Assembly (NCBI RefSeq): GCF_000025285.1
Contig: NC_013741.1
Span: 992,001-1,056,000 of the forward strand
Source: Archaeoglobus profundus DSM 5631
GTDB lineage: Archaea > Halobacteriota > Archaeoglobi > Archaeoglobales > Archaeoglobaceae
Direction: 5' to 3'
Length of the DNA: 64,000 bases
In this document: in pieces, positions 4,003 to 37,647 of the stretch
How positions within the stretch are numbered: the stretch's first letter is position 1
How the letters are laid out: every line of letters begins with the position of its first letter
Program-made: the position numbers and the translations under genes
Notes under the pieces: generated by a model
Databases searched by the model: none
What the model saw: only the letters and a program-made list of their open reading frames with translations
Told to the model about the DNA's origin: nothing

Positions 4003-4025
4003 CACTCTTTCGATCTACAGACTAC

Positions 4026-10966: not shown

Positions 10967-11166
10967 TACTTAACTTACTTGCTTACCTCGAATAAAAGCT
11001 TTGATTCATGGATAAAGTAAGTGAAATGAATACGAAAACGATAGAATCAGCTCTGGCTTAGTTAATAAAGTTTAAGCTACTGTGTGAAGTATTAGAATTA
11101 GGAATCTGTATTACATCGAAAGATATAAGGAATATTACATTTCAAAGTGTTATAGGTGATTGTGTA

Positions 11167-18553: not shown

Positions 18554-20359
18554 TTACTGGACAATGAACACCTTAACTTTACCGAAGTCCTTAAGAAGCT
18601 TAAAGTGTTCGAGCGATACCGCATTCTCGATATGAAGCTTGTAAAACATCGAATTGTTATATACTTCCAATGTCTTATTCAATCCTAACGAGTCTGGATT
18701 CATTCCCGCTATGCGCATAATAGTTTGGAATTTTCCTCCGAAAGTTTCGTTACCCAGTTGCATTTCATCATCGGTAACGATGTATTTAACTCCTCTTTTT
18801 TTGACGATTTTTAACGCTTCTTCTTCACTTTGAGCTGTGAAGAACTTAGCTGCATCGATAGCACCAGCTTGGAAGTTGTTGCAGACTACTGGCCTTTTAG
18901 CTACGTAAACGATCCAGTTACCGTAGTCCCACCAACTCAGAATGGAATATTCTGGCTTCCCTTTATCGGGCTGTGAGTAATAAGAAGTTTTTTCGGTATT
19001 TTTGTTTATCCATATCAACGCATCCTTCCAGCTTTCATTCATATCAAACGGTCTTATTGCTGCAACGAATGACGGTAAAAGAATGAAGCATATAAATCCC
19101 AAGGTATATATTTTATAACCCAAAGTAATCTCGTCGTCTCTTTTAGTATCGCGCTTACTCTTTCTCTTACTCTTTCTATTATGCTTCTTCCTTCGATCTT
19201 TTAATTCGTCCATAGCTTTGGTTTCCCCATTAAACACGGGATAACCCATCTTGTCAAGGAGTATGCAGAGCGTGTGGGATGCATAAAGAGAGATTGGAAC
19301 GGACAATACTTCGGTGAATCTTATTTGGAGTATTGCTAAGAACAACGTAGAAATGAATAGAGTTAGAACGAATTTGTTTCTAAATATCAACAAGGATGGC
19401 ATAGCGAGAAAGAACACGAATAGACCGAGAATAGTTATTATTTCTCTAAACTTGAACGGTTGAGCCTCAACTATCGTTGGGAGATAGATATTTCTACCGA
19501 AGAGGTAGTCTATACCACTTCTCACAAACCATAACTCTTTGATTGGCAAGAAATAGAGTATAACCACTAATATTGTACAAGTCAAAACATAATAAATTGT
19601 TATATTTTTCTTGTTATCTTCGAATTTCTTGACGAAGTATCCCACTACGAGAAATGCCGTTATCATCAAAAAAGCCAAGCCCAAGAATGGTTTAAGAATG
19701 AAGGAAACAGAGGCTACGCCAATGCAAATTGCAGTGATAAGGATTTTTTTGTCGTTGAAGTGTATTAGTGCAGCAAGGGCGATTAAAGCTGCGTATATCG
19801 GCGCACCGACCCACGAAAAGGCCAGTAATGTTATAAAAACTCCTGATAATAAAGACAACCAGTCGTCTCTGAGTAGAAAGTAGATAGAGCACAAGAGCAG
19901 AAAGACGTTCCAGATGTGGTGATCGCAAAATCCCAAAACGCTAACGTAAACAACTGCTGGCGTAACGGCGAAGATCAAAGCGGAAAGGGTGGCAAAGTAC
20001 TCGTTATTTAAAAGCCTTCTAGATATGAGATACACCAGTAGAGTCGATAAAACGCCTAAAACGACTGGAAAAACCATTGCAAAGATTTCTGTAGATCTGA
20101 ATCCGAAGAGCATCCCCGGAAGGGCTAAAGTGTAATCGAAAAGAGGTAACCATCCAATCTTTAATCCGTACGGATAGTTCAGGTAGTAGTCGAAATCTGG
20201 TCTGTATCCCGACTTAACTATGACTTCAGCCAATCTTAAGTGATAATACGGGTCGTAACCAGCTGGGAGGATAACGGAAGAAAAAACTTTATCGAAGTTT
20301 TGAAATCTTACGAGGAAAGATACTGCGAGCACAATTGGTAGGTATATATTTTTTCTCAT
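18554..20359 (-). CDS. aglB: Oligosaccharyltransferase AglB (STT3 family), short form
   Basis: 601 residues, close to the short AglB proteins of Archaeoglobus. It transfers a lipid-linked glycan to Asn in N-X-S/T sites on the outside of the membrane. The N-terminal two thirds is polytopic membrane: LPAGYDPYYHLRLAE carries the first acidic motif (Asp36) and VLGFCDHHIWNVF the second (Asp146). The short soluble C-terminal part has the sequon-binding WWDYG motif (ILSWWDYGNWIV, about residue 476). A basic cytoplasmic loop (KKHNRKSKRKSKRD) divides the last helices. It ends the minus-strand group that starts with the GT4 gene at 22603. Confidence 0.93.
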   Translation of the reverse strand: MRKNIYLPIVLAVSFLVRFQNFDKVFSSVILPAGYDPYYHLRLAEVIVKSGYRPDFDYYLNYPYGLKIGWLPLFDYTLALPGMLFGFRSTEIFAMVFPVVLGVLSTLLVYLISRRLLNNEYFATLSALIFAVTPAVVYVSVLGFCDHHIWNVFLLLCSIYFLLRDDWLSLLSGVFITLLAFSWVGAPIYAALIALAALIHFNDKKILITAICIGVASVSFILKPFLGLAFLMITAFLVVGYFVKKFEDNKKNITIYYVLTCTILVVILYFLPIKELWFVRSGIDYLFGRNIYLPTIVEAQPFKFREIITILGLFVFFLAMPSLLIFRNKFVLTLFISTLFLAILQIRFTEVLSVPISLYASHTLCILLDKMGYPVFNGETKAMDELKDRRKKHNRKSKRKSKRDTKRDDEITLGYKIYTLGFICFILLPSFVAAIRPFDMNESWKDALIWINKNTEKTSYYSQPDKGKPEYSILSWWDYGNWIVYVAKRPVVCNNFQAGAIDAAKFFTAQSEEEALKIVKKRGVKYIVTDDEMQLGNETFGGKFQTIMRIAGMNPDSLGLNKTLEVYNNSMFYKLHIENAVSLEHFKLLKDFGKVKVFIVQ

Positions 20360-22661: not shown

Positions 22662-23717
22662 ATGAAAGCACTGATACTATCTGGCGGACATGGAACAAGA
22701 CTAAGACCGCTCACCTATTCTCAGCAGAAGCAGTTAATTCCAGTCGCTAACAAGCCCGTGCTTTTTTATGCAATTGAAGACGTAATTGAAGCCGGGATAA
22801 AGGATATAGGTATAATTGTTGGCCCAAATAGGGATCAGGTTATCGAGACCGTTAAGTCTGTCGACTGGGATGCAAACATCGAATTCATATATCAGGGTGA
22901 TCCATTAGGATTGGCTCATGCAATACTTGTCGCTGAAGAGTTTTTGGACGATGAAGAGTTTGTAATGTATTTAGGTGACAACATTCTCAAGGATGGTATT
23001 GTTGAACACGCTCGAAGATTTAAGGAGTTAAATCCAGATTCTCTCATACTGCTCACAGAAGTTGACGAACCACAACGTTTTGGTGTCGCTGAATTAGATG
23101 AGAACGGTAAGGTTAAGAGGTTGATAGAAAAGCCAAAAGTTCCACCTTCGAACTATGCGTTAGTGGGAATATACTTCTTTAAGCCCATAATAATCGAAGC
23201 TTGTAAGAATATTAAACCTTCATGGCGTAACGAGCTTGAGATTACGGATGCAATTCAATGGCTGATTGATAAAGGTTATAGAGTTGAAGCATCGATAGTT
23301 AAGGGATGGTGGAAAGACACTGGAAAGCCGGAGGACATTCTTGAGGCTAATAGGTTGGTTTTAGATGAGATCGAGTCGGAGATTAAAGGAAGCTTAGACA
23401 ACTCTAAAGTTATCGGGAGAGTTGTAATTAAAGAAGGGAGTATCATCAAGAACTCAACAGTTAAAGGGCCATGCATCATTGGAAAGAATTGCGAGGTAGT
23501 TGACTCTTACATAGGACCTTACACGTCCGTTGGTAACAACTGTAAGGTTATTGGAACGGAAATAGAGGACAGCGTGATAATGGAGGGTAGCAAAATAATA
23601 AACGCTGGGAGGATAATAGAGAGCTTGATCGGTAGGGGTGTAACGATTCAGAAGGGAGATTCAAAACCGACGGGACAGAGGTTTGTAGTCGGAGACAACT
23701 CTAACATAGTGTTGTGA
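22662..23717 (+). CDS. rmlA: Glucose-1-phosphate thymidylyltransferase (long form, with left-handed helix tail)
   Basis: 351 residues. LILSGGHGTRLRPLT is the nucleotide-binding loop, followed by VMYLGDNILKDG and the metal-binding DTGKPEDILEAN. Residues about 245-351 are hexapeptide repeats (GKNCEVVDSYIGPYTSVGNN) of a left-handed beta-helix, as in archaeal long-form enzymes, which may also use other nucleotides. Makes dTDP-glucose from dTTP and glucose-1-phosphate, first step of dTDP-rhamnose synthesis. Four bases before rmlB, so co-transcribed with it. Confidence 0.9.
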   Translation: MKALILSGGHGTRLRPLTYSQQKQLIPVANKPVLFYAIEDVIEAGIKDIGIIVGPNRDQVIETVKSVDWDANIEFIYQGDPLGLAHAILVAEEFLDDEEFVMYLGDNILKDGIVEHARRFKELNPDSLILLTEVDEPQRFGVAELDENGKVKRLIEKPKVPPSNYALVGIYFFKPIIIEACKNIKPSWRNELEITDAIQWLIDKGYRVEASIVKGWWKDTGKPEDILEANRLVLDEIESEIKGSLDNSKVIGRVVIKEGSIIKNSTVKGPCIIGKNCEVVDSYIGPYTSVGNNCKVIGTEIEDSVIMEGSKIINAGRIIESLIGRGVTIQKGDSKPTGQRFVVGDNSNIVL

Positions 23718-23721
23718 TAAC

Positions 23722-26235
23722 ATGAGGGTGCTCGTTACAGGTGGCTTGGGCTTTATAGGGAGCAACTTCATCAGATATCTCCTCGATAAGTATTCGGATG
23801 TCGAAGTTGTTAACGTGGATGCAATGAAATACGGATCCAATCCGAACAATTTAAAGGATGTTGAAGGCGATGAGAGATACACTTTCGTTAAAGGAGATAT
23901 ATCGGATTACGAGTTGATTTCTAAGCTTGTGAAGGATGTTGATGCAATAGTTAATCTCGCTGCCGAATCGCACGTGGATAGAAGCATTTCCAATCCGTAT
24001 TCCTTCCTGCAGAGCAACGTTATAGGGGTTTTTACGATATTGGAAGCTGTGAGAAAGAATAATCCAGAAGCTAAGCTCATTCAGGTCAGTAGTGTGACGG
24101 GAGATACACCAGTACTATTAAGAGATAAAAAGACAGGAGACATTTTCCTAACAAGAATAGACTTCTTGAATGAGAGTAATTACCATCAATACGAGGCTCT
24201 AACGATTAACGAAGATCTTAAGGTAGAATTTATGCCCATTTCTGGAATTGTTAGTCATCCAGCCAATGAGATTTATGAAATTGAGTATGAGGGTGGAGGG
24301 AAAATTAAAACCACAGGATCTCATTCCGTTTTCGTATTTGACAGAAACGGAGTAAGGGAGAAATACGTGTCAGAATTGAGAGAGGGAGAATATCTAGTAA
24401 CGTTACTGGCTTTCAGTAGAAATGGATTTGAATCAGAACATGTCTTAAGGATTAGAGACTATATAGATCCTAGTGAGTTTGAGAGAAACCGAAGAGTTAA
24501 GAAGAGTGTTGAAGCAAGAAAGAAAGTACTTGAAATCCTGAAAAATGGTCCAAGAGGCTTAAAGGAGCTCACACGAATTTCTGGCATAAGTTACGAAGCT
24601 TTAAAAGATATGATTGAGCAGGGGATGATAACAAAAAAAGGTAGGAAATACAGTATTACCAAAAAAGGCTTAGAAGAATTGAAAAACGGCATGGAGGAGA
24701 CGAAGTATCGGATATATAGGAGGATTCTAAACTTGCCAAGTGATTTAGAGGAGATCAAAATTTCTCCCGAATTAATGTGGCTTTTCGGCTTATATTTGGC
24801 AGAGGGCCATGCATCTCATACGGAAAAAGAGATGAAAAAAGGGTTAAAAAAGGTTGTAATAACAACAAAAGATCTGAAGGCACTGCAGAAGGCAAAGGAA
24901 ATTCTTGAGAGGTATTTCAGATATAGAAAAGCACAAATCAGGCGTAAAGATAAACTTGGCACTTATCAGCTGGAATTTGGAGGCAAAATCCTACATGCAA
25001 TATTTTCGGAGTGGGGCGCAAACTCAAGGGACAAGCGCATTCCTAACTGGGTATGGAAATTACCTAAAGAATACATCTTCAAACTGCTCGAAGGATACGA
25101 AGGCGATGCACATATTAGAGGTGACAATTCTAGAGTGTTTACATCAGCGAATGAGTCGCTAATTACGAGCTTACTCTGGTTGTGTAGGCTAAAAGGGATT
25201 AACGCTAGATACGTGAGAAGAATTTGCAAGAATATGAAGGGTGAATTTCAGAGAAGGGGAGAATATGATCTAGTAATGCATGACTTGGTCATATCTTCTG
25301 AAAATTATGAGAGTAAAATCGTAAGAACCCCACATTCAAAATGCATTCCTCTGGAATTAGTGATAGATCTTTTGCCGAGATACGTGGTTAGTAAGTACAG
25401 AAACAAGAGAAATATGTTGATTGGTAAGGAAAAGGCCAAGAAGTTGATTGGAAGAAGGTATAGTAGATACGTGACTTCGGACATAGGCGTCGCAAAGGTT
25501 CGTAAAATTAGGAGGATAAAGACGAATACTATGGTGTACGACATCGTTATCGATCGCAACCACAAGTTCTTTGGCGGAAATGTCCCCATCTTACTCCACA
25601 ACACAGACGAAGTATACGGAGATATTATAAAAGGCTCTTTTAAAGAAGAGGATAGATTAAAGCCTTCCTCGCCCTATTCGGCAAGTAAGGCTGCTGCCGA
25701 CATGTTTGTTCTAGCTTGGGTTAGAACTTACGGCTTACATGCCATGATCACAAGATGCACGAACAACTACGGTCCATATCAGTTCCCTGAAAAACTGATC
25801 CCTAAGACAATCATCAGAGCATCGATGAATCTGAAGGTACCAATTTACGGAACTGGAAAGAACGTCAGAGATTGGATCTACGTCTTAGATCACTGCGAAG
25901 CGGTAGATTTGGTAATGCGAGAGGGAGAGAAGGGAGAAGTATACAACATTTCGAGCGGTGAGGAGAAAACGAATCTTGAAGTCGTGAGAACTATTCTAGA
26001 TCTGATGGGTAAGGATGAAAGCCTAATAGAGTTCGTTGAGGATAGACCGGGACACGATTTGAGATATAGTCTGGATTCCTCGAAGATTAGAGAAGAGTTG
26101 GGTTGGAAACCAAAGCACAGCTTCAAAGAAGGGATAAGGAAAACTGTGAAGTGGTATATTGAAAATGAATGGTGGTGGAGGCCTTTAGCTGATGAGAGAA
26201 CTCTACACCCAACACCTTGGAAGCTTAGGTGGTAA
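23722..26235 (+). CDS. rmlB: dTDP-glucose 4,6-dehydratase interrupted by an intein
   Basis: 837 residues, of which 504 are an intein. The flanking host parts give a normal-length short-chain dehydrogenase. GGLGFIGSNFIRYL binds NAD at the N-terminus, and YSASKAAADM is the YxxxK active site in the C-terminal host part. The insertion falls inside ...IQVS | TDEVYGD, exactly before the catalytic Thr-Asp-Glu triplet, so the enzyme is dead until splicing. Removes water from dTDP-glucose to give the 4-keto-6-deoxy sugar for RmlC and RmlD. A toxin-antitoxin pair separates it from rmlD. Confidence 0.92.
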   Translation: MRVLVTGGLGFIGSNFIRYLLDKYSDVEVVNVDAMKYGSNPNNLKDVEGDERYTFVKGDISDYELISKLVKDVDAIVNLAAESHVDRSISNPYSFLQSNVIGVFTILEAVRKNNPEAKLIQVSSVTGDTPVLLRDKKTGDIFLTRIDFLNESNYHQYEALTINEDLKVEFMPISGIVSHPANEIYEIEYEGGGKIKTTGSHSVFVFDRNGVREKYVSELREGEYLVTLLAFSRNGFESEHVLRIRDYIDPSEFERNRRVKKSVEARKKVLEILKNGPRGLKELTRISGISYEALKDMIEQGMITKKGRKYSITKKGLEELKNGMEETKYRIYRRILNLPSDLEEIKISPELMWLFGLYLAEGHASHTEKEMKKGLKKVVITTKDLKALQKAKEILERYFRYRKAQIRRKDKLGTYQLEFGGKILHAIFSEWGANSRDKRIPNWVWKLPKEYIFKLLEGYEGDAHIRGDNSRVFTSANESLITSLLWLCRLKGINARYVRRICKNMKGEFQRRGEYDLVMHDLVISSENYESKIVRTPHSKCIPLELVIDLLPRYVVSKYRNKRNMLIGKEKAKKLIGRRYSRYVTSDIGVAKVRKIRRIKTNTMVYDIVIDRNHKFFGGNVPILLHNTDEVYGDIIKGSFKEEDRLKPSSPYSASKAAADMFVLAWVRTYGLHAMITRCTNNYGPYQFPEKLIPKTIIRASMNLKVPIYGTGKNVRDWIYVLDHCEAVDLVMREGEKGEVYNISSGEEKTNLEVVRTILDLMGKDESLIEFVEDRPGHDLRYSLDSSKIREELGWKPKHSFKEGIRKTVKWYIENEWWWRPLADERTLHPTPWKLRW
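24091..25602 (+). other. Intein in RmlB with LAGLIDADG-type endonuclease and a winged-helix insert
   Basis: 504 residues from Ser1 (SVTGDTPVLLRD, block A) to His-Asn (VPILLHN), followed by host Thr as +1 nucleophile. The block B region TTGSHSVFVFDRNG carries the TxxH histidine. The DOD endonuclease motifs are LFGLYLAEGHAS and LLEGYEGDAHIRG. Between the N-terminal splicing part and the endonuclease is a complete winged-helix-like segment (VLEILKNGPRGLKELTRISG ... YSITKKGLEEL), which may add DNA binding. All splicing residues look intact. Confidence 0.9.
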
Positions 26236-26267: not shown

Positions 26268-26513
26268 ATGGCATCTGATATGGAAGTAATTAAGGAACTG
26301 GATAGACAGGGTAGATTGGTGTTGCCGAAGGAGTGGAGGGAAAAGTATGCAAAGGACGGAAGGATAGTTCTGAGAGTTGAGGGGGATAAGATCACTATAA
26401 GGCCGTATAAACTGGTAGATCTTACCAAATTCTTCGACAAGATTGAAGTTGATTTGAAATCGGATCTATCCGATTGGAAATCCGTAAGGAGGGAGTTGCT
26501 TGAGGTTCGTTGA
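26268..26513 (+). CDS. vapB: AbrB-family antitoxin (VapB)
   Basis: 81 residues; ATG 26280 is a possible start. MEVIKELDRQGRLVLPKEWR with VLRVEGDKITIRPY is the swapped-hairpin AbrB DNA-binding domain, and the last 30 residues are a helical toxin-binding tail. It overlaps the PIN toxin by 14 bases. The pair lies inside the rml operon, 32 bases after rmlB and just before rmlD, on the same strand, so it probably shares transcription with the sugar genes. Confidence 0.85.
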   Translation: MASDMEVIKELDRQGRLVLPKEWREKYAKDGRIVLRVEGDKITIRPYKLVDLTKFFDKIEVDLKSDLSDWKSVRRELLEVR

Positions 26514-26916
26514 TGCGAGCGTATTCGTTCACGCCTTCATAAAACCGAAAAGAAAGTTGAAACCTCACGAGGTAAAGATAAAGGAGTCGGCCAAGGAGAT
26601 TGTTAAGAGGATAAACGAAGGTGAGGAGGTTGGCATTACGGTCGTTCAAATTGCTGAGATAGCAAATCTGCTTGAGAGCTATCTACCGCTGAATGAAGCT
26701 CTGAAGATTGAGGAATTCCTGCTTGTTGCTGGAAATGTTAAGGTGTTCGACGTTACAAAGAAGGATTGCCTGAACGCTTTGAAGATTGCAAAAAAGAAGA
26801 ATGTGGGATTAAGTGATGCTATAGCTTACGTTATCATGATGAAGAAGGGTGTGAAGGAGATATATTCGTTTGATAAGGATTTTGACAACTTAAACGTTAA
26901 AAGAATCACGGAGTGA
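26500..26916 (+). CDS. vapC: PIN-domain toxin (VapC)
   Basis: 138 residues from TTG 26500. Acidic PIN residues are present: RFVDASVFVHAF (Asp5), TVVQIAEIANLLE (Glu), GLSDAIAYVIM (Asp) and YSFDKDFDNL (Asp pair). Typical VapC length and order, so likely an active tRNA/rRNA endonuclease. The gene ends in the ribosome-binding region of rmlD (GGAGTGAT covers its stop), so translation of toxin and rmlD are tied. Confidence 0.88.
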   Translation: MRFVDASVFVHAFIKPKRKLKPHEVKIKESAKEIVKRINEGEEVGITVVQIAEIANLLESYLPLNEALKIEEFLLVAGNVKVFDVTKKDCLNALKIAKKKNVGLSDAIAYVIMMKKGVKEIYSFDKDFDNLNVKRITE

Positions 26917-26921
26917 TAGTT

Positions 26922-27797
26922 ATGAAGGTATTCATCACCGGTGGAAGCGGATTGTTGGGGAGTAAGGTAGCTGAAATAGCTTTGGAAAGGGGATACAATG
27001 TTTATTCGGGATACAACAGTCACAAACCCGAATTTGGGGAGCCGGTTAAGTTCGATTTGGCTGATCCGAACAGTATTGTAAAAGTTATTGATGATGTTAG
27101 GCCGGATGTGATCATCCATTCTGCAGCACTTACGGATGTAGATAGATGCGAAACTGAGAAAGAATTAGCATATAAGATAAACGTCGAAGGGACTAAGATC
27201 GTTGCTGAAATGGCGAGAAAGCTTGGAGCCTTTTTGGTTTACATCTCAACGGACTACGTTTTTGACGGGGAAAGAGGGATGTACAAAGAAGAGGATGAAA
27301 CAAATCCCATCAACTATTACGGCTACACGAAGCTTTTAGGCGAAAAATATTGTCAGGACTTTTGCATTGCAAGGACTTGCGTTATTTATGGGGCGAGACC
27401 GGCAAGCGGAAAGGCTAACTTCGCCTTGTGGCTGATCAACAAGCTTGAGAAGGGGGAATGCGTTAAGATAATCACGGATCAGTTCATTACTCCCACTCTA
27501 AATACAAATCTGGCGAAGATGCTGCTGGAAATTGCTGAAAGAGGGCTTAAGGAAGTTTTTCATTTAGCTGGAATCACGAGAGTTTCTAGGTTCGAATTTG
27601 CTAAGGAGATTGCCAGAGAGTTTGGGTTGGATGAAAGCCTTATAGTTCCTTCGAAGATGGATGAGATGAACTGGATTGCAAAGAGGCCGAGAGATTCATC
27701 CCTCGACGTTTCGAAAGCTGCAAGATATTTGAATGAAAAGCCCTACGATTTGAAGAAAGCTTTGAAGGTTTTGAAGGGCGAGATGGAGGTGAACTAA
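26922..27797 (+). CDS. rmlD: dTDP-4-dehydrorhamnose reductase
   Basis: 291 residues from ATG 26922, chosen because GGAGTGAT lies six bases upstream; GTG 26913 is the alternative. KVFITGGSGLLGSKVAEIAL is the nucleotide-binding loop, YISTDYVFDG holds the catalytic Thr/Ser, and YYGYTKLLGEKY is the YxxxK site. Uses NAD(P)H to make dTDP-L-rhamnose in the last pathway step. The stop overlaps the start of rmlC (TAATG). Confidence 0.92.
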   Translation: MKVFITGGSGLLGSKVAEIALERGYNVYSGYNSHKPEFGEPVKFDLADPNSIVKVIDDVRPDVIIHSAALTDVDRCETEKELAYKINVEGTKIVAEMARKLGAFLVYISTDYVFDGERGMYKEEDETNPINYYGYTKLLGEKYCQDFCIARTCVIYGARPASGKANFALWLINKLEKGECVKIITDQFITPTLNTNLAKMLLEIAERGLKEVFHLAGITRVSRFEFAKEIAREFGLDESLIVPSKMDEMNWIAKRPRDSSLDVSKAARYLNEKPYDLKKALKVLKGEMEVN

Positions 27798-28294
27798 TGC
27801 TTCCCGGTATAGTTATCAAGCCATTGAAGAGGTTTGCGGATGAGAGGGGATTTTTCACAGAGATAATGCGCAAGGACTGGGAGATATTCGAAGATGAGAT
27901 AGTTCAGGCAAATCTATCGATTACATATCCAGGAATTGTCAGGGCTTGGCACAAGCACGAAAGGGGGCAGGTAGATTACTTCGTCTGCATAAAAGGTGCT
28001 ATCAAGATCTGTGCTTACGACGATAAAACTCAGGAATTGGCCGAAATAATATCTACTGGGGATAATCCGCAGATAGTTAGGATTCCTGGACACTACTGGC
28101 ACGGTTTTAAAGCTTTGGGAGTCGAACCGGCTATGCTCGTTTACTTCGTCAACAGACTCTACGATTACAAGAATCCTGACGAGGTAAGAAGGCCTTGGAA
28201 CGATCCCACGATAGTTCCTAAGAGGATCAACGGCAGAGAGGACGATCCCCGCTGCAACAAACCTTGGGACTGGTTTTATCCTCCGCACAAATGA
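27797..28294 (+). CDS. rmlC: dTDP-4-dehydrorhamnose 3,5-epimerase (RmlC-like)
   Basis: 165 residues. FADERGFFTEIMR, VRAWHKHERGQVDYFVC and PGHYWHGFKALG are the cupin blocks of the epimerase, with the catalytic His in RAWHKH. Converts the 4-keto-6-deoxyglucose to its rhamno form ahead of RmlD. The C-terminal PRCNKPWDWFYPP tail is typical of archaeal and some bacterial forms. Its stop overlaps the next glycosyltransferase as ATGA, so rhamnose supply and use are coupled. Confidence 0.9.
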   Translation: MLPGIVIKPLKRFADERGFFTEIMRKDWEIFEDEIVQANLSITYPGIVRAWHKHERGQVDYFVCIKGAIKICAYDDKTQELAEIISTGDNPQIVRIPGHYWHGFKALGVEPAMLVYFVNRLYDYKNPDEVRRPWNDPTIVPKRINGREDDPRCNKPWDWFYPPHK

Positions 28295-29166
28295 AGACAG
28301 TCTACGCGATAGTGGTAAACTACGAGAACTTTGAAGACACGGCGGAGTGCATAGAATCATTACTCAATCAGAGCTATCCTTGCAGGATTTTGCTCGTTGA
28401 TAACGGATCGGATGTTGGCATAGTTGAAAAACTAAAGATTGCTTTTCCCCAGATTGAGGTTCTTAGGCTCAACGAGAACTTGGGATATGCTGCCGGTTGC
28501 AACGCTGGGATCAGGAAAGTTATCGATCGATCAGACTACATCTTCCTCGTAAACAACGATGTCGTTCTTGAAAGAGATACTCTGGAGAAGATGATTCAAG
28601 AGATGGAAAGGGATGACAGGATTGCGGCATGTCAACCAGTTGTGAAGTATTACGGAGATGACGTTGTGTGGTCTGCGGGCACTCAGCTATTCTTGGGATA
28701 TCCGAAACTGTACCTGAAGAATAAGAGGTGCGAGGTCGGGACTCTCGAGCCGCCATTCGGTTTGGTTGGCTGTGCGATGCTGATTAGGGTTTCGGCTCTG
28801 AAGGATGTGGGACTCTTCGACGAATCGCTCTTCATGATGCACGAGGAGACGGACTGGTGTATAAGGGCGAAAAAGAGGGGTTACAAGTTTCTCGTTTGCA
28901 GGTCATGTGCTTATCACAAGGTGTCAAAAACTATCGGATTGTTCAGCAGGGAGTATCTCTACTATATAGCGAGGAACTGGCTCATCGTGGCGAGAAAGGC
29001 CGGATTTAGAATGTTCTTCTATGCACTGATCACGGAACCTCTCAGGATACTGTATTATTTTCTGAAGCTCAAGGAGAAGGAGAAGATTAGATATTATCTG
29101 GAAGGTTTGAAGGACGGGATTTTGGGTGTAAGGGGAAAGTATGAGAACGACGTTCGTCGTCGTTAA
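28291..29166 (+). CDS. Family 2 glycosyltransferase (rhamnosyltransferase-like)
   Basis: 291 residues from ATG 28291, overlapping the rmlC stop. TVYAIVVNYENFEDTAECIE, RILLVDNGSDVGIVE and IFLVNNDVVLERDTLEKM mark the GT2 fold, and MMHEETDWCIRAKKRGYKF is the acceptor-site ED-WC motif common in rhamnosyltransferases. The C-terminus has an amphipathic membrane-associated region. Placed right after rmlC, so dTDP-rhamnose is the likely donor. Overlaps the next GT2 gene by 26 bases. Confidence 0.85.
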   Translation: MKTVYAIVVNYENFEDTAECIESLLNQSYPCRILLVDNGSDVGIVEKLKIAFPQIEVLRLNENLGYAAGCNAGIRKVIDRSDYIFLVNNDVVLERDTLEKMIQEMERDDRIAACQPVVKYYGDDVVWSAGTQLFLGYPKLYLKNKRCEVGTLEPPFGLVGCAMLIRVSALKDVGLFDESLFMMHEETDWCIRAKKRGYKFLVCRSCAYHKVSKTIGLFSREYLYYIARNWLIVARKAGFRMFFYALITEPLRILYYFLKLKEKEKIRYYLEGLKDGILGVRGKYENDVRRR

Positions 29167-30148
29167 CTACAACGGAGAAAAATATATTGAAAAATGCATA
29201 GAGTCCATACTATCTCAAACATGTAAAAAGTTCAGGATTCTCGTTGTGGACAACGCCTCGACAGACGGATCGATTCAAATAATAAGGAATATTGCGGACA
29301 GAAGCTCTAAGGTTGAGGTTATCAGGAATGATGAGAATGTCGGATTTGCCAAAGCAGTCAATCAGGCGCTGGAATTGATCGAAAGTGGCTTGATTGCTCT
29401 CGTCAACAACGATGTATTTTTGGATAGCAGATGGCTTGAAGAGATGGTAAAATCTGCTAGAAGCGATTTGAGGGCGGGAATTTTTGCCTCCAGGATCTAT
29501 TTCTTGAACGGTTTGATAAACTCCACTGGGCATGCTATATATAGAGGGTTGGCTGTAATGGAAAGGGGGTTTTTTGAAAGGGATTTAGGGCAATACGATG
29601 AATCTTGCTACGTAGCTGGAGCATGCGCTGCAGCGGCTTTATACAGGAGAAAGCTGTTTGAAGATATTGGCTTTTTCGATGAAGATTACTTCATGTACAA
29701 CGAGGATGTCGATTTAAGCTTGAGAGCTATTTTGCGAGGATGGAAGATAAGATATGTTCCCACAGCGATAGCATATCATGTTCATTCAGCTTCTACGGGA
29801 TTCTTGTCAGATTTTTCCGTTTATTACAACAGCAGAAACTGGGTTTGGAGTGTTTTGAAGAATGCACCAAGGAGAATTTTAATTAAAGAATTGCCGTTTT
29901 TCTTGCTCAGAAACTTGACATCCGTTATATACTTCTGTCTCAACGGTAAATTTACGGTAATTAAATCTAAGATCGATGCAATAAAGGAGCTTGGAGAAGT
30001 CTTTAAAAAGAGGGAGATAGTTCGGAGGGGTAAAAGATTTGAACGATTTGAGGAATACATCGATGGCTTCGGCTGGAAGGTGTTGAAAAATGTTTGGCTA
30101 TCTAAGGCAGAGAGATGTGATAATAACATTGACAAAGTACGAGTTTAA
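29141..30148 (+). CDS. Family 2 glycosyltransferase (rhamnosyltransferase-like)
   Basis: 335 residues. TTFVVVNYNGEKYIEKCIES, ILVVDNASTDGSIQII and ALVNNDVFLDSRWLEEMV form the nucleotide-sugar site; FMYNEDVDLSLRAILRGWKI is the acceptor-site motif. It is a paralogue of the preceding enzyme, and the two may add successive rhamnose units. The last 60 residues are basic and run into the ABC permease gene, which begins 59 bases before this gene ends. Confidence 0.85.
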   Translation: MRTTFVVVNYNGEKYIEKCIESILSQTCKKFRILVVDNASTDGSIQIIRNIADRSSKVEVIRNDENVGFAKAVNQALELIESGLIALVNNDVFLDSRWLEEMVKSARSDLRAGIFASRIYFLNGLINSTGHAIYRGLAVMERGFFERDLGQYDESCYVAGACAAAALYRRKLFEDIGFFDEDYFMYNEDVDLSLRAILRGWKIRYVPTAIAYHVHSASTGFLSDFSVYYNSRNWVWSVLKNAPRRILIKELPFFLLRNLTSVIYFCLNGKFTVIKSKIDAIKELGEVFKKREIVRRGKRFERFEEYIDGFGWKVLKNVWLSKAERCDNNIDKVRV

Positions 30149-30848
30149 GCTGAGATATCGAGGGACTGTGCTTGGAATCGGTTGGAGCTTGCTGGCTCCC
30201 TTCCTGTTAGCAGTTGTACTTTACTTTGTTTTCAGAAATGTTTTCAGATTCGTCGAAAACTTCGCTTTGTATGTCCTAGTAGGTGTATTCGTTTTTAGAT
30301 TTTTTTCCGTAGCTACATCAGTGGGTATGTATTCAATAATAAGTAAGGCTAATTTTGTCACAAAAACGAATTTGAGTAGGGAGATTCTTCCGTTGGTTAC
30401 TACTCTAACCTATTTTTTTAGTTCATTCATAGAACTCTTAATTTTAATACCAATAATATCGATATTTGGAGGCGAGATAGGTATGTACATTCTACTGCTC
30501 CCCGTCATACATATCGTGTATCTGATTTTTGTATATGGCGTTAATCTATATTTATCTGCTATTACAGTCTACTTTCGGGATTTAAATCAGATTTGGGAAG
30601 TAATAACCAACATACTGTTCTTTGCAAGCCCTATAGTGTATCCAATTAGAGTAATTCCAAAGGAGTATGTGAACATTTATATGCTTAATCCGCTGACGAG
30701 ATTTATCGAACTTTATAGGGATGTTATGATATACAACACATTTTCGATCAACGATTTCGTATATGTTCTGATATCATCACTCCTCGTTTTCACAAGCGGG
30801 CACATATTCTTCAGGAGGCTACAGAGAAAGTTCGGAGAGGTGTTGTGA
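30090..30848 (+). CDS. wzm: Polysaccharide ABC exporter permease (Wzm-like)
   Basis: 252 residues with six predicted membrane helices, ABC-2 type. LTKYEFKLRYRGTVLGIGWS is the typical cytoplasmic N-terminal coupling region, and FASPIVYPIRVIPKEYVNIY with LNPLTRFIELYRDVM is the conserved C-terminal block of O-antigen/teichoic-acid exporters. Moves a finished lipid-linked polysaccharide across the membrane. Overlaps the ATPase gene (GTGATG), so made as a unit. Confidence 0.88.
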   Translation: MFGYLRQRDVIITLTKYEFKLRYRGTVLGIGWSLLAPFLLAVVLYFVFRNVFRFVENFALYVLVGVFVFRFFSVATSVGMYSIISKANFVTKTNLSREILPLVTTLTYFFSSFIELLILIPIISIFGGEIGMYILLLPVIHIVYLIFVYGVNLYLSAITVYFRDLNQIWEVITNILFFASPIVYPIRVIPKEYVNIYMLNPLTRFIELYRDVMIYNTFSINDFVYVLISSLLVFTSGHIFFRRLQRKFGEVL

Positions 30849-31588
30849 TGATCAAAGTCGAAAGAGTATCTAAAAAATTTAAGCTTCCCATAGAGAAAAG
30901 ATACACGTTGTTTGAAGAGATCGTCGCATTTATAAGGGGTAAAAGGGATTTTGTCGAGTTTTGGGCTTTGAAAGACGTAACATTCAACGTCAAAAAAGGA
31001 GAGATTTTTGGAATCATGGGTCCAAACGGTTCGGGAAAATCAACTTTACTGAAGATAATTGCAGGAGTTCTGTATCCAGATAGCGGAAAGGTTGAAGTTA
31101 GAGGTAAAGTCACACCTATACTTGAGCTTGGTGTTGGCTTTAATCCAGAATTAACGGCTAAGGAGAACGTTTACGTTTACGGAGTTATTATGGGATTGAA
31201 AAAGGAAGAGGTTAAAAAGAAGTGTGATGAGATATTCAGATTTGCCGAGCTGGAAAGGTTTAAAAATATGAAGCTTAAGAATTTTTCCTCGGGTATGTAT
31301 GCTAGATTGGCGTTTGCGACAGCTATAGCCACAGAACCGGAGATACTGTTGATAGATGAAGTTTTGGCTGTGGGTGATATCAACTTTCAGAGGAAGTGTA
31401 TTGAAAAGATTAAAGAGTTGAACGAAAATGGAACTACAATAGTTGTTGTCAGTCATAGTCCTGAAATGATAGCGGATATATGTGATAGGGCTATGTTACT
31501 TGAGAATGGAGTTGTAAAGGCTATTGGGGAATCCAAAGATATCGTAGGTACCTACATGAAACAGTACAGTAGTGATGGTGATATTTAA
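30848..31588 (+). CDS. wzt: Polysaccharide ABC exporter ATPase (Wzt-like, short form)
   Basis: 246 residues from ATG 30848; GTG 30845 overlaps the permease stop and is the alternative start. Walker A is IMGPNGSGKSTLLKII, the signature is FSSGMYARLAF, Walker B is ILLIDEVLAVGD, and the switch His is in VVSHSPEM. It ends right after the ATPase fold and lacks the extra C-terminal carbohydrate-binding domain of chain-terminus-sensing Wzt proteins. Overlaps the next gene by one base (TAATG). Confidence 0.9.
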   Translation: MIKVERVSKKFKLPIEKRYTLFEEIVAFIRGKRDFVEFWALKDVTFNVKKGEIFGIMGPNGSGKSTLLKIIAGVLYPDSGKVEVRGKVTPILELGVGFNPELTAKENVYVYGVIMGLKKEEVKKKCDEIFRFAELERFKNMKLKNFSSGMYARLAFATAIATEPEILLIDEVLAVGDINFQRKCIEKIKELNENGTTIVVVSHSPEMIADICDRAMLLENGVVKAIGESKDIVGTYMKQYSSDGDI

Positions 31589-34500
31589 TGACCTGCAAAG
31601 AGATAAAGAATTTACCATTTGATCTTTATACACGCAATTACATAATTGTAAACGTAATAAATAATTACTACAAAAGTAGTAACGCTAAAATTCGTATACT
31701 CGATGTTGGTGGTAAAAATGGACGGCTTAGGGATTTTCTCAATGAATCAAAATTTGATCTTATAGTTCTCGATGTAGATCCTAAACCAGACACAAAAGAG
31801 TACATCGTAGGAGATGCGAGAGCTCTACCTTTTAAACCAAAATCTTTTGATGTTGTTGTTTCTTCCGAGTTACTCGAACACATACCACCTAATGATAGAA
31901 TAAAAGTCTTAGAGAATATGATTGAAGTTAGTAAAGATTTGGTTATACTTGCCGCTCCGTTTTATTCAAAGGAGGTTGAAGATGCCGAAGTTAGAGCTAA
32001 TGAATTTTTTAAGAGATTCTTTGGTAATGATCATCGATGGCTTAAGGAGCACATTGAGAATGGTTTGCCAAGGGAAAGAGATATTGAAGAATTTGTAAAG
32101 AGTAAGGGTCTAAATTTTACTAAGATCCAAACAAACAATATAAATAATTGGCTACTAATGCAGTTATTTATATTTTCAGCTTATATCTTCGGTATAACTC
32201 CAGAAAGAGTTGCGGAAGTATATAGATACTATAACGAAAACTTCTTGGAACTTGGAGATTTTCTACCGCCAACATATAGGAAGATATATATAATTGGTAA
32301 AAAAGTTCCAAAAGTTGATTTTGGGAAGTCATACTTAAATATAAACAAGTATCAGAGATTATTAGAACTGATATCTAATGCAATAGCACAGACAATTCGA
32401 GATAAAGATGAACATATAAAAAACCTTGAAGCCTTGTTGAATCAGAAAACGGTTGAAGTTGAATCCCTTAAAAATGAGTTGCAAAGATTACTACGAGATT
32501 TAGACAAGAAATCTGCCCTAATACAAGATTTGAATAACGAAATAGAGAAATTAAAAATCGATTTAAAGGATAAAATTCAAGAAAATATAAATTTAAAGAA
32601 CAAATTATTTGAGACTAAGAATGAAATTAAGCGCTTGCAAGAGATAATTAAAAGATTAGAGGAAAAGGTAGCAGACAAGAATAATTTAATAGCAAAACTT
32701 GAGGCTGAAAATGAAGCTTTAAAGAACAGATTAGCAACTGTAGAAAAACATCTACATGAAATTCAGCAAAGTTTAATATTTAAAGCTTTAGCCAAGTATC
32801 AAAGATTTATAGACAAACTTTTACCGTTAGGAACAAGAAGGAGATTTTATTACGATTTAGGAATAATTGGATTGAGAACAATCGCGAATGAAGGCTTTTT
32901 AGTCTTCTTAAACAGAGCTAGCGAATACATCCGTAAGAGATTAGCTTTAAAACATAAAATTGTGAAACCACTTCTTGAGACAAATATGTTACATTCGGGA
33001 ACTCACGAACCGTTGAAGCTTGATAAGGAGCTTGTGATAAAATTTAGGGCTAAAGCTGATAGACTCAACGAAATTAAAATCTTGACGGCAACGTATCAAA
33101 GAAGAAATAAGGATTTAGAGCTTTTAGTTGAAGTGGACGGAAAGCTTGAGAGAAGAGTTATCGTTAAAGGTTGGAAAATTCTCGATAACGACTATACATC
33201 GTTTAAGTTCAAGCCCATAGAAAACTGTGAAGGAAAGCTTGTAACATTGAGACTTAGATCTTTAGGTAAGCCGTCTTCAGCAGTTTGGTTTAACAGACAC
33301 ACAAGCTTTGGCGAAGTTGAGTTGTTTTACGATGGTAAAAAGATAGATGGCAGTATAAACATTCAAGTGTATCACGACATAAAAGTGAGAGACGATTACG
33401 AGCTATGGATTCTAAAGAATGAACCAAAGGAGGAAGATCTAAAAAGAATGGCTGAAGAATGTAAGAAATTCAAGTATAGACCTAAAATCAGCATAATAAT
33501 GCCTACTTGGAATACAGATGAAAGGTGGTTAAGGAAAGCGATCGAATCTGTCTTAAACCAAGTTTACGATAACTGGGAGCTCTGTATTGCAGATGGGGGA
33601 TCGACTAAGCCTCACGTTAGAAAAATTTTGGAGGAATACGCTAAGAAAGACAAGAGAATTAAAGTAAAGTTCTTGCCCAAGAACTTAGGTATTGCGGGAA
33701 ATTCGAACGAAGCTTTGAAATTGGCTACCGGCGAATTCGTGGCGTTTTTAGATCACGACGACGAACTGGCACCGTTTGCTTTGTATGAGGTCGTTAAACT
33801 GCTAAACGAAAAGCCCGACTTGGACTTTATATACTCCGATGAAGATAAAATCGATGAAAAAGGTAGAAGGAGAGATCCGTTCTTCAAACCTGACTACAGT
33901 CCAGATATGTTTTTATCTTGTAATTACCTAATTCACATAACGGTAATAAGAAAATCTCTTGTTGATAAGGTTGGAGGTTTTAGACTCGGATACGACGGTA
34001 GTCAGGATTACGATCTGTTTTTGAGGGTTTTGGAGCATACGGATAAGATTGCCCATATACCAAAGATACTATACCATTGGAGAGCAATTGAAACTTCATG
34101 TGCATCCAGACCAGAAGCTAAAATGTATGCCTATAAAGCGGCTAAAAAGGCTTTAGCAGATGCGATGAAGAGAAGAGGAATTGAAATAGAAGGTGTCTAC
34201 GACGGCTTATGGCTCGGTAGCTACAGGATCAAGTACAAGATAAATGGAAATCCGAAAGTTTCGATAATAATTCCCACCAAAGATAAGGTTGAAGTATTGA
34301 AGAGGTGTGTTGAGTCCATTCTGAATAAGACCACCTATCAGAACTACGAGATCGTTATCGTTGACAACAACAGCCAAGAAGAGAAGACGTTTGAATACTA
34401 CGAAACTATTAAAGATCATCCGAAGATAAGAATCTTGGAATACAATAAGCCGTTCAACTTCTCGGCGATAAACAACTATGCAGTTTCAAAGGTCGATTCT

Positions 34501-35082
34501 GAGTTTATTCTGTTTCTGAACAACGATACCGAAGTCATAACCTCGGAATGGCTTTCCGCTATGCTTGAGCATGCTCAAAGGAAAGAAGTTGGCGCTGTCG
34601 GTGCCAAGTTGTTGTATCCTAACAATACAATTCAGCATGCTGGCGTTATTCTGGGTTTGGGTGTTCATAGAGTTGCTGGACACTCCCATAGACATTATCC
34701 AGCTAATTCTCATGGTTATGTGGGTAGAATAAATGTTGTTCAAAACCTTTCAGCTGTTACCGCAGCGTGCATGCTCACCAAAAAATCCTTATTCGAAGAA
34801 GTGGGCGGTTTTGATGAAGTCAATTTGCCAATAGCGTTCAATGACGTTGATTACTGTTTAAAGCTAAGGGAAAAAGGTTATTTAATCGTTTACACTCCAT
34901 ACGCTGTGCTGTATCACTACGAATCGCTTTCGAGGGGATACGAAGATACGCCAGAAAAGCAGGCGAGATTTCTGAGGGAGGTAAGGTATATGAGAGAAAA
35001 GTGGGGACACATACTGGACAACGATCCATACTACAATCCTAATTTGACGAGGGAGAAGGAAGATTTTTCGATTAGGGTGTAG
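31588..35082 (+). CDS. 1164-residue methyltransferase / coiled-coil / GT2 / GT2 fusion
   Basis: Domains in order: a SAM methyltransferase (about 30-200; RILDVGGKNGRLRDF, FDVVVSSELLEHIPP); a long coiled coil (about 268-393, near 18 heptads); a helical and beta region (about 400-620, RRRFYYDLGIIGL); a first GT2 (about 632-870; ISIIMPTWNTDERWLRKAIE, FLDHDDE near 721); and a second GT2 (about 889-1140; VSIIIPTKDKVEVLKRCVES, FLNNDTE near 975, NDVDYCLKLREKGY). Probably synthesises the polysaccharide chain exported by the adjacent Wzm/Wzt. The methyltransferase plus coiled coil recalls bacterial chain-terminating, length-setting enzymes of WbdD type, here fused to the polymerase; that role is inference. 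Confidence 0.85.
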   Translation: MTCKEIKNLPFDLYTRNYIIVNVINNYYKSSNAKIRILDVGGKNGRLRDFLNESKFDLIVLDVDPKPDTKEYIVGDARALPFKPKSFDVVVSSELLEHIPPNDRIKVLENMIEVSKDLVILAAPFYSKEVEDAEVRANEFFKRFFGNDHRWLKEHIENGLPRERDIEEFVKSKGLNFTKIQTNNINNWLLMQLFIFSAYIFGITPERVAEVYRYYNENFLELGDFLPPTYRKIYIIGKKVPKVDFGKSYLNINKYQRLLELISNAIAQTIRDKDEHIKNLEALLNQKTVEVESLKNELQRLLRDLDKKSALIQDLNNEIEKLKIDLKDKIQENINLKNKLFETKNEIKRLQEIIKRLEEKVADKNNLIAKLEAENEALKNRLATVEKHLHEIQQSLIFKALAKYQRFIDKLLPLGTRRRFYYDLGIIGLRTIANEGFLVFLNRASEYIRKRLALKHKIVKPLLETNMLHSGTHEPLKLDKELVIKFRAKADRLNEIKILTATYQRRNKDLELLVEVDGKLERRVIVKGWKILDNDYTSFKFKPIENCEGKLVTLRLRSLGKPSSAVWFNRHTSFGEVELFYDGKKIDGSINIQVYHDIKVRDDYELWILKNEPKEEDLKRMAEECKKFKYRPKISIIMPTWNTDERWLRKAIESVLNQVYDNWELCIADGGSTKPHVRKILEEYAKKDKRIKVKFLPKNLGIAGNSNEALKLATGEFVAFLDHDDELAPFALYEVVKLLNEKPDLDFIYSDEDKIDEKGRRRDPFFKPDYSPDMFLSCNYLIHITVIRKSLVDKVGGFRLGYDGSQDYDLFLRVLEHTDKIAHIPKILYHWRAIETSCASRPEAKMYAYKAAKKALADAMKRRGIEIEGVYDGLWLGSYRIKYKINGNPKVSIIIPTKDKVEVLKRCVESILNKTTYQNYEIVIVDNNSQEEKTFEYYETIKDHPKIRILEYNKPFNFSAINNYAVSKVDSEFILFLNNDTEVITSEWLSAMLEHAQRKEVGAVGAKLLYPNNTIQHAGVILGLGVHRVAGHSHRHYPANSHGYVGRINVVQNLSAVTAACMLTKKSLFEEVGGFDEVNLPIAFNDVDYCLKLREKGYLIVYTPYAVLYHYESLSRGYEDTPEKQARFLREVRYMREKWGHILDNDPYYNPNLTREKEDFSIRV

Positions 35083-35091
35083 GTGGTATAG

Positions 35092-37647
35092 ATGACATCT
35101 AAGGTAAAGGTAGAGATATTCGAAAAACTAATGAAATATGAAGATATTGTTTTCTTACTAGCGTTTATCGTTCTGGCATATATCTATCTAGGCGCTAATA
35201 TTCTTTCTGGAGAAATCGTAGCTCCTATGGATCTTCTTTTACGGTATCCAGGCTATAGAGAATCAGGCCTATCGTTACCTCTTTATAACCCTGAGAGATC
35301 AGATATATTAGATTGGCTTTTACCTCAGTGGATATTTATCAGGGAGGAAATTTTAAAAGGTAATATCCCACTCTGGAATCCACTTCGAAATTATGGTGTA
35401 CCAGTTTTCTACGCAATCGAACCGAGTTTTGTGATCTTTTTATTATTTGGTGGTGGAATAGGATTTACTCTTGGTTTAATTGCCAAATTAGTGGTTGCTG
35501 GGTTTGGTGTATATAAGTTGTGCCGGGAAGATCTTGGAATTCTTCCCTCGTTCTTTGCAGGTATTACATATATGATGTGCGGCTTTAATGCATCATGGTT
35601 AATGTGGCCTCAAGTTTCAACAAGTGCTTGGATACCTTGGGTATTATGGACAGGGAGAAAGGTTGTCGAAACTCGAAGACTTAGCTGGATTGTTGCATTA
35701 GCACTAACAACTTCCATGTTAATTTTCGGATACTTTCCATTTATAACTGCATTAGGGTTATATTTGTTGGTGTTATACATTGCTTGGATTATTTTTATTA
35801 ATAGGAAAAATATAAGTAGGAATCTATCATTAATTTTACTGAAGGTTTCTTCAGGGATAATCCTGGGTATACTTTTAGCTTCGGTGTTCATTTTTCCATT
35901 CGTAGAATGGATGCATGTGGTGGATACTTCTTGGAGGCATGCGGGTTCAGCTTTAAGCTTGAGGGATATAGATATTTTTTGGAATATAAAATACTATTTT
36001 AAAATTGGTGACCATTTAGTGCCTAGAGTTGAGAAGACGGGATACGTCGGGAAGGTGGTTATAATTTTATCCTTCTTCGTGATTTTATGTCTCTTGAAGA
36101 AGAATAGGCATATTCTGTTTAGGGGTGTATCGCCGATATTTTGGCTTTTAATTTTTGTGATCACTTTAGTAGTAGCGTTTAACATTAAACCTGTTAGTAG
36201 TCTCCTATATGCCATACCACCATTTAACAACAATCCGTCCCATAGAGCAATAGTGTTCGCCGATTTGGGACTGGCAATAGTTAGTGCAGTAGGTATGGAA
36301 CTATTAATAGTATCTGTAAGGGATTTAGCGAAAAATCTTATCAGAGAAAATATAGGCATGGCACTATTGTTAATTGCTATTGCAGTTCTAGTAGTTATAC
36401 ATTACTTTGACTTATCAACTGTCGGAAGATCGCAAAATGCGGTAGTCCCTGCTGAAACTTTCTACCCAATTGCACCGACGATAAAGTACGTCAAAGAATC
36501 CTTAATCCCTGGACAACAAGTCATAGCTACAACTGATGCCTACTTAATATCAGGAACCTTGACAGCCTACGGCGTACCGGAGCCGTTTGCTCATGGGTAC
36601 TTCCGTGCTGAAGAGAAAGAGATACTTTCACACATAGTACGGAAAGCTTGGAGGACGCCTACAGCAACCATATTCACATTTGAAAAAATTGAGATTAATG
36701 ATTCTAAATACATAGATAAACTATTCATAAGGTATATTCTGACATCGCGTCTACCTATCTCACAAACTCAGAACGATAAACCCGCACCACCAATACCACC
36801 AAATATTATTGGGCAGACATTTAAAATTAAAGAGAACTTTACATTGTTTGGATTCTCAATTCTAATGGCAACATATGGAAAGGAAACGGTCAATACTGAT
36901 GTAGTTCTTGAAGTTTACAAGGATAAACACAATATTAGCACGAAAATATTATCGATTTTAATAAACTCTAATGAAATAAAAGACAATAAGTGGATTAATG
37001 TTAGACTCAAACAGCCAATTAAGCTTACGCCTGGTTCGTACCACATACAACTTAGAGCATTAAAGAACAATACGGATCCAGTTACAGTTTGGACGCTTAG
37101 GAAAACTGATGCTTATGAAGATGGTCATCTCACTGTCAACGGGAAGCCACTTGGTGGTGATATTGCTTTTAGAGTCATAGGAATTCCTGATGGAATAGCA
37201 AAGCATTGGGATGTCTATACTCTAACAGGGGATGTATTTATTTTCGAGAACAGAGATTGCCCACCGGGAGCTTACCTCATTGATAACGATGACGAAATAA
37301 TTAGCAATGCCACAATCAAGATCATTCAATATAGTACTAATTATATTAAGTATTGCATAGAAACAAACAAGTCGGGACTACTAGTAGTGCCTATTAGAGT
37401 GTGGCCTGGTTGGCAAGTGGATGTTAACGGTGAGCGAACAACGGTAATCCCCTACCTAGAAATGTTATCGGCCGTACATGTAGATGCTGGCAAATCGATA
37501 GTTGAGTTTCGGTATGACCCTCTCACTTTCAAAGTAGGAGCTATTACATCATTCATTACATTGATAATCCTTTTGGCCTTAGTCATAGTAGATCGAAAGT
37601 TAAGATGTAAACATAATGAGACTCGTTGTAATGATTCCTGCTTTTAA
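35092..37647 (+). CDS. YfhO-like polytopic membrane protein (GT-C-like)
   Basis: 851 residues. About 12 membrane helices cover 20-450, and APMDLLLRYPGYRESG with IPLWNPLRNYGVPVFYAIEP (a large periplasmic loop after helix 1) is the YfhO family hallmark, with an acidic residue in the first loop. The last about 380 residues are a beta-rich extracellular part ending in one helix (TSFITLIILLALVIV). YfhO proteins are thought to add sugars from lipid carriers on the outer face. Lies 9 bases after the fused glycosyltransferase, so likely the last intact gene of the export operon. Confidence 0.8.
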   Translation: MTSKVKVEIFEKLMKYEDIVFLLAFIVLAYIYLGANILSGEIVAPMDLLLRYPGYRESGLSLPLYNPERSDILDWLLPQWIFIREEILKGNIPLWNPLRNYGVPVFYAIEPSFVIFLLFGGGIGFTLGLIAKLVVAGFGVYKLCREDLGILPSFFAGITYMMCGFNASWLMWPQVSTSAWIPWVLWTGRKVVETRRLSWIVALALTTSMLIFGYFPFITALGLYLLVLYIAWIIFINRKNISRNLSLILLKVSSGIILGILLASVFIFPFVEWMHVVDTSWRHAGSALSLRDIDIFWNIKYYFKIGDHLVPRVEKTGYVGKVVIILSFFVILCLLKKNRHILFRGVSPIFWLLIFVITLVVAFNIKPVSSLLYAIPPFNNNPSHRAIVFADLGLAIVSAVGMELLIVSVRDLAKNLIRENIGMALLLIAIAVLVVIHYFDLSTVGRSQNAVVPAETFYPIAPTIKYVKESLIPGQQVIATTDAYLISGTLTAYGVPEPFAHGYFRAEEKEILSHIVRKAWRTPTATIFTFEKIEINDSKYIDKLFIRYILTSRLPISQTQNDKPAPPIPPNIIGQTFKIKENFTLFGFSILMATYGKETVNTDVVLEVYKDKHNISTKILSILINSNEIKDNKWINVRLKQPIKLTPGSYHIQLRALKNNTDPVTVWTLRKTDAYEDGHLTVNGKPLGGDIAFRVIGIPDGIAKHWDVYTLTGDVFIFENRDCPPGAYLIDNDDEIISNATIKIIQYSTNYIKYCIETNKSGLLVVPIRVWPGWQVDVNGERTTVIPYLEMLSAVHVDAGKSIVEFRYDPLTFKVGAITSFITLIILLALVIVDRKLRCKHNETRCNDSCF

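Follow-up and report, generated by a model that had tools for sequence, protein, structure and literature searches.

Here we analyse a stretch of 64,000 nucleotides of the archaeon Archaeoglobus profundus DSM 5631 (contig NC_013741.1, positions 992,001 to 1,056,000; hereafter the window), in which a single gene encodes a methyltransferase, a coiled coil and two glycosyltransferases. The open reading frame (ORF) of this fusion is complete, starts with ATG and encodes 1164 residues (31588-35082, + strand). The host genome comprises 1.56 Mb in two contigs, and the fusion is no isolated assembly artefact, as full-length homologues occur in other genomes at 83% (locus L041), 57-58% (L042, Methanophagales) and 51% (L172) identity. 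Immediately upstream lie the genes of an ATP-binding cassette (ABC) exporter: Wzm, an ABC-2 permease of 252 residues (30090-30848, +; ABC2_membrane, E 7e-18; NCBIfam galactan_ABC_perm, E 5.5e-15, below its cut-off), and Wzt, an ATPase of 247 residues (30845-31588, +) that matches ABC transporter ATPase families only and has no C-terminal carbohydrate-binding module (CBM). The three genes overlap, at the junctions GTGATG (Wzm/Wzt) and TAATG (Wzt stop/fusion start). Genes of the rml type for deoxythymidine diphosphate (dTDP)-linked deoxysugars sit upstream of them, placing exporter and sugar-nucleotide genes in one cluster.

Pfam, AlphaFold and a heptad scan of the ORF together give the order of the fusion. 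A predicted class I S-adenosylmethionine (SAM) methyltransferase domain (residues about 1-240; 31588-32307, +; from Pfam, conservation and an isolated-domain model) is followed by a coiled-coil rod (residues about 252-405; 32341-32802, +; heptad scan and AlphaFold) and a conserved linker (residues 396-451, SLIFKALAKYQ..LLPLGTRRRFYYDLGIIGLRTIANEG; 32773-32940, +). Next comes a β-sandwich-like domain without a Pfam family (residues about 474-597; 33007-33378, +), assigned from AlphaFold secondary structure with a predicted local distance difference test (pLDDT) score of mostly 70-93. The chain ends with two family 2 glycosyltransferase (GT2) domains, each placed by Pfam, motifs and Foldseek: A (residues 633-840; 33484-34107, +; DHDD and QDYD motifs) and B (residues 889-1118; 34252-34941, +; NND and NDVDY motifs). 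A first-pass annotation of the window had proposed a methyltransferase, a coiled coil and two GT2 domains in one protein directly after an exporter whose ATPase lacks the terminus-binding domain, and all of this is borne out. We consider the protein very likely to be a glycan polymerase with two GT2 modules, whose rod carries a modifying methyltransferase at its distal end.

Methyltransferase, rod and glycosyltransferase pair

Methyltransf_11 matches residues 38-116 above the Pfam cut-off (E 4e-8). Within the domain (METHYLTRANSFERASE), the residues D39, G41, G42, G45, D62, G75 and D76 do not vary among four full-length homologues. Motif I is D39-V-G-G-K-N-G45 in the fusion and D-x-G-G-[KR]-x-G across homologues, one glycine of the classical motif being consistently replaced, with Lys or Arg at the fifth position. 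Core SAM-motif residues are thus kept at the level of sequence, and the missing SAM site that the first-pass annotation had named as fatal to its proposal is not what we find. Modelled in isolation, the domain reaches a predicted template modelling score (pTM) of 0.73, better than within the full-length model, and its best fold matches in the PDB are SAM methyltransferases, RebM and AtmM among them. Searches by sequence returned only weak generic matches in the PDB and two weak generic methyltransferases on plasmids. No kinase domain is matched by Pfam in the fusion, and the AlphaFold model leaves almost no gap between methyltransferase and rod.

The rod extends over residues 257-405 in the heptad scan and over AlphaFold helices 252-337 and 344-394, giving a length of about 150 residues; the first-pass annotation was right about the coiled coil and short, at about 125 residues, on its length. 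The mean heptad score of residues 252-395 is 0.90, against a mean of 0.56 (standard deviation 0.06, maximum 0.76) in 300 shuffles. In both sequence and single-chain model, the rod separates the putative terminator from the glycosyltransferase modules, and at about 0.15 nm per residue we infer that it would span about 22 nm.

Rod length varies among relatives, the heptad scan giving 149 residues in the window, 192 in L041, 212 in L042, 121 in L172 and 98 in L166 and L174. Strong in-frame tandem DNA repeats (score >= 200) overlap the rods of nine proteins with periods that are always multiples of 21 bp (42, 84, 105 and 168). Examples are L172 (42 bp x 4.9 at 96%; 9601-9806), L042 (105 bp x 5.0; 3501-4021), L174 (8145-8302), L045 (6250-6455) and L135 (6524-6888). 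Strong repeats outside the rods of these proteins, such as tetratricopeptide repeat (TPR) arrays of 102 bp, do not have periods that are multiples of 21; an array in heptad register is easier to call as a rod, making repeat period and rod call not independent. The sequences indicate that rods lengthen by whole heptads, through tandem DNA repeats whose periods are multiples of 21 bp, and no tandem repeats were found in the rod of the window fusion itself.

A hidden Markov model (HMM) that we built from the linker (PLGTRRRxxYDLxxxGLRxxxxEG) matches sequences from archaea and from the phylum of L044 (Nitrospirota, listed as Nitrospirae), several of the matches having belonged to the building set. 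The maximum hydrophobic moment of the linker lies at the 98.8th percentile of the protein, and a membrane-proximal or docking role is possible.

Glycos_transf_2 matches the fusion twice (E 5.9e-55; 635-783 and about 889-1118), and both modules carry DxD-like and catalytic-base motifs. The best Foldseek matches of the pair are heparosan synthase 2 and K4 chondroitin polymerase (K4CP), which align with both modules together over about 580 columns; the fusion therefore carries two GT-A modules in tandem that resemble those of a known dual polymerase, with activity predicted. At E <= 1e-60, the pair is matched in 29 of 244 genomes of Cyanobacteria and in 41 of 246 of the phylum of L044, which marks it as a widespread bacterial module. 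It is joined to many N-termini, among them TPR repeats, sulfotransferases, GT2, GT4 and β-sandwiches, some read by eye from the sequence. In a tree of 88 modules, archaeal sequences are scattered among bacterial ones: well-supported branches require at least three changes of label, and the window clade is placed near sequences from the phylum of L044. Horizontal transfer explains this most simply. A search for viral relatives found none. In the L172 fusion (8662-12132), the second GT2 has no NND/DxD-type motif (FLDENVKII) and DDVEL replaces NDVDY; this module may be inactive.

Relatives, exporter partners and neighbouring genes

The nearest homologues of the fusion come from Archaeoglobales and Archaeoglobaceae, and the architecture is also present in several other archaeal lineages and in cyanobacteria. 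It occurs with other methyltransferases in L174/L166, L173/L165 and the cyanobacterial locus L048, and in the Archaeoglobaceae loci L036 and L037 a methyltransferase and rod are joined to a GT2. The methyltransferases of rod fusions form three groups, that of the window having no significant BLAST similarity to the other two. In an archaeon and cyanobacteria the far-end enzyme is a sulfotransferase (L035, 8660-12277, -; L049, 4559-10876; L122, 6275-9277; L135, 2449-7851, -). In the fused rod relatives read, an enzyme domain occupies the distal end of the rod, and it belongs to one of the three methyltransferase groups or is a sulfotransferase or a GT2. We read this as a core of rod, linker and glycosyltransferase module with an apparently exchangeable end enzyme. 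Genes seem to be disrupted in two relatives. In L037 (7851-11442, -), from a genome that is otherwise a single contig, a change of frame near 9300 seems to divide the methyltransferase-rod-GT2 gene, and in L033 (4093-4760) the Wzt upstream of the fusion seems to be broken up into short overlapping ORFs, a pseudogene or an assembly error.

The order rml, Wzm, Wzt, fusion recurs in L172 and L174, and the survey of other archaea that the first-pass annotation had suggested thus finds the same architecture; the type of exporter, by comparison, is not constant. Wzt_C (PF14524), the C-terminal CBM family, has zero matches in the whole host genome, and in a search of 60 relatives it matched four, two of them above the family cut-off. 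L172 encodes the same fusion beside a Wzt of 439 residues with Wzt_C (E 2e-27), whereas in L174 a 250-residue CBM-less Wzt immediately precedes a fusion whose methyltransferase is unrelated. As the window and L174 pair CBM-less Wzt with unrelated methyltransferases, this pairing arose or persisted more than once. Elsewhere in archaea, CBM-less Wzt is also found in L035, L038, L039 and L175. Bacterial Wzt proteins beside long-rod fusions have 463-534 residues, consistent with a CBM, which Pfam confirms for L048. After the L174 fusion lies an ORF of 611 residues (10286-12121, +) with a weak haloacid dehalogenase (HAD)-phosphatase signal, a possible counterpart of the ribofuranosyltransferase partner known from Klebsiella O7.

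The sugar-nucleotide genes of the window, all on the + strand, encode an RmlA-like nucleotidyltransferase (22662-23717; NTP_transferase, E 1.4e-57; role from context), an RmlB-like dehydratase (23722-26235; GDP_Man_Dehyd, E 6e-80) interrupted in frame by an intein that carries a LAGLIDADG domain (Intein_splicing, E 2e-19; LAGLIDADG_3), an RmlD-like reductase (26913-27797; RmlD_sub_bind, E 2e-75) and an RmlC-like epimerase (27797-28294; dTDP_sugar_isom, E 6e-13). A short ORF between rmlB and rmlD (26500-26916, +) resembles, by eye, a PIN-type nuclease. Two GT2 glycosyltransferases assigned by Pfam (28264-29166 and 29141-30148, both +), candidate adaptor or primer enzymes, precede the exporter. 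Downstream, a YfhO-type membrane protein adjoins the fusion (35092-37647, +; YfhO, E 7e-10) and is a candidate glycan-modifying or lipid-linked sugar enzyme; a β-sandwich common to the two proteins is unsupported by BLAST (E 2.3). An AglB/STT3 oligosaccharyltransferase (18554-20359, -; AglB_core-like, E 2e-21; STT3, E 1.5e-12) may provide an acceptor step.

Comparison with known polymerases and terminators

The first-pass annotation had set the fusion against bacterial systems in which a separate WbdD-type protein caps the chain. That premise is not general, as WsaE and Klebsiella O7 ORF6, both studied by experiment, and WbbB (O12) are single proteins. WsaE of Geobacillus stearothermophilus NRS 2004/3a is trifunctional, combining a 2-O-methyltransferase and two rhamnosyltransferases in the synthesis of an S-layer rhamnan; its methyltransferase methylates a rhamnose and was assigned the chain-ending 2-O-methyl cap (PMC2943079, PMC3898925). 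WsaE and the archaeal fusion both have an N-terminal methyltransferase and two glycosyltransferase domains; in the Geobacillus slg cluster wzm, wzt and wsaE overlap, like their counterparts in the window, and rml genes are present (PMC2943079, PMC3898925), and the WsaE product is exported by an ABC transporter. In contrast to the CBM-less archaeal ATPase, the Geobacillus Wzt is predicted to bind the capped chain, and the Geobacillus system also needs a further rhamnosyltransferase, WsaF.

ORF6 of Klebsiella pneumoniae O7, ordered methyltransferase, kinase, CBM, coiled coil, GT2, GT2, has terminator activity in vitro (PMC11231755). As in the fusion, a central coiled coil holds the methyltransferase apart from a C-terminal GT2 pair, and the gene sits in a cluster with wzm/wzt and rml genes; unlike the fusion, ORF6 has a kinase and an internal CBM-like domain ahead of the coiled coil, and its cap is a methyl-phosphate. 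These likenesses to WsaE and O7 ORF6 are drawn from published descriptions of the two proteins. The 2024 paper on ORF6 also mentions an archaeal homologue, from Methanoculleus marisnigri, and cites as its reference 70 a study of the S-layer glycans of this organism (PMC11231755).

Other systems are less close. WbdD and WbdA of Escherichia coli O9a (PMC3482155) share a methyl-type cap and the coiled-coil ruler principle, but the polymerase WbdA is separate, WbdD has a kinase and Wzt has a CBM; the kinase next to the methyltransferase that marks the WbdD type is not found in the fusion. Because there is neither room nor a Pfam match for a kinase, a plain O-methyl cap would be expected here, not the methyl-phosphate of WbdD (O9a) and O7 ORF6. 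WbbB of Klebsiella O12 is likewise a single protein with a terminator, a rod and a pair of polymerase modules (PMC11231755), but its terminator is a 3-deoxy-D-manno-oct-2-ulosonic acid (Kdo) glycosyltransferase and its modules belong to GT99, GT102 and GT103. In L048 (Mastigocoleus testarum), Wzm and Wzt precede a protein ordered methyltransferase, coiled coil, GT2, GT2, with a GT2 pair about 47% identical to that of the window; it differs in having another methyltransferase group, an extra C-terminal GT4 and a Wzt with Wzt_C (E 2.5e-33).

The fusion therefore has the anatomy of the WsaE/O7 ORF6 kind and lacks the CBM of cap-gated export. We rejected the idea that it is new or restricted to archaea, given the published WsaE and O7 ORF6 and the homologues found elsewhere. 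Of the single-protein archaeal machine for synthesis and length control envisaged in the first pass, the union of synthesis, capping and spacing modules in one protein stands and the archaeal novelty does not. What is novel is modest, namely the CBM-less exporter, the archaeal lineage and the missing kinase, the fusion architecture itself being already known.

A proposed route to a capped glycan

By analogy with these systems, we propose that the fusion is an archaeal polymerase-terminator of the WsaE/O7 ORF6 type that probably ends its own chain with a methyl cap and uses the rod as a spacer or ruler, and give this reading a probability of roughly 0.6. Taking donor type, capping, ruler action, membrane anchoring and acceptor from relatives, we envisage that the GT2 pair extends a lipid-linked primer at the inner membrane face into a chain of repeat units, the donors probably being dTDP-6-deoxyhexoses (rhamnose-like), and that the linker probably anchors the GT2 domains there. 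The rod would hold the methyltransferase about 20 nm away, so that long chains alone would reach it; an O-methyl cap would then stop chain growth, and Wzm/Wzt would export the chain, perhaps to the S-layer or another glycoprotein. A CBM-less exporter could accept it if the cap is not read or if the fusion passes the chain straight to it. As to the parts, we favour the methyl group as a chain-ending cap, on the precedent of these relatives, and see about even odds that the rod sets chain length.

Several points weigh against this proposal. Terminated O-antigen systems use the Wzt CBM for export (PMC11231755), and none is detected in this genome; published transporters without a CBM fail to export capped chains; methylation by WsaE in vitro is independent of chain length (PMC2943079, PMC3898925); the evidence for the rod is sequence and a single-chain model; and the full-length AlphaFold model (13 sequences) fails at residues 1-90, leaving the methyltransferase unresolved. 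The recurrence of CBM-less Wzt in the window and five other loci, the chain-length independence of WsaE and a capsule system whose ABC transporter works without a terminating residue (PMC11231755) would all suit a methyltransferase that instead tailors sugars along the chain, with the rod as a scaffold for oligomerization and membrane holding and with length emerging from the kinetic competition of synthesis with export. We regard this as possible, if doubtful: tailoring would not require the modifying enzyme to stay at the far rod end across lineages despite changes of family, and the whole-heptad steps of the rod also speak against it.

A methyltransferase that no longer acts on the glycan, being degenerate or having another substrate and leaving only the GT2 pair at work, would fit the Lys or Arg that takes the place of Gly in motif I (DVGGKNG) and the only moderate domain model; it is improbable, since D-x-G-G-[KR]-x-G, D62 and G75-D76 are shared by four homologues, the most distant at about 50% identity, and RebM and AtmM, among the top fold matches, are methyltransferases acting on sugars. 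That the β-sandwich is a relocated end-binding module replacing the Wzt CBM, as its presence beside a CBM-less exporter and the internal CBM-like domain of O7 ORF6 might suggest, is very improbable and was rejected: L172 carries both the matching segment and Wzt_C, L174 has a CBM-less Wzt without a comparable segment between linker and GT2, and since the domain and Wzt_C do not replace each other from locus to locus, the former fails to explain the CBM-less exporter.

Within the proposed polymerase-terminator, termination and export could even be coupled in one complex without a CBM, the fusion passing the finished chain to Wzm/Wzt and rod length, changed in whole-heptad tandem-repeat steps, acting as an adjustable setting; this we hold to be unlikely.

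Homologous loci that have the cap-reading module (L172) or lack it (the window and L174) provide a natural test case for the need of a cap in export. Rod repeats of 42, 84 or 105 bp suggest a possible stepwise evolution of glycan length through gain and loss of repeats. The surface polysaccharides of Archaeoglobus-type archaea have been little studied, and as a polymerase-terminator the fusion would bring to these organisms an experimentally understood route to surface glycans of controlled length.

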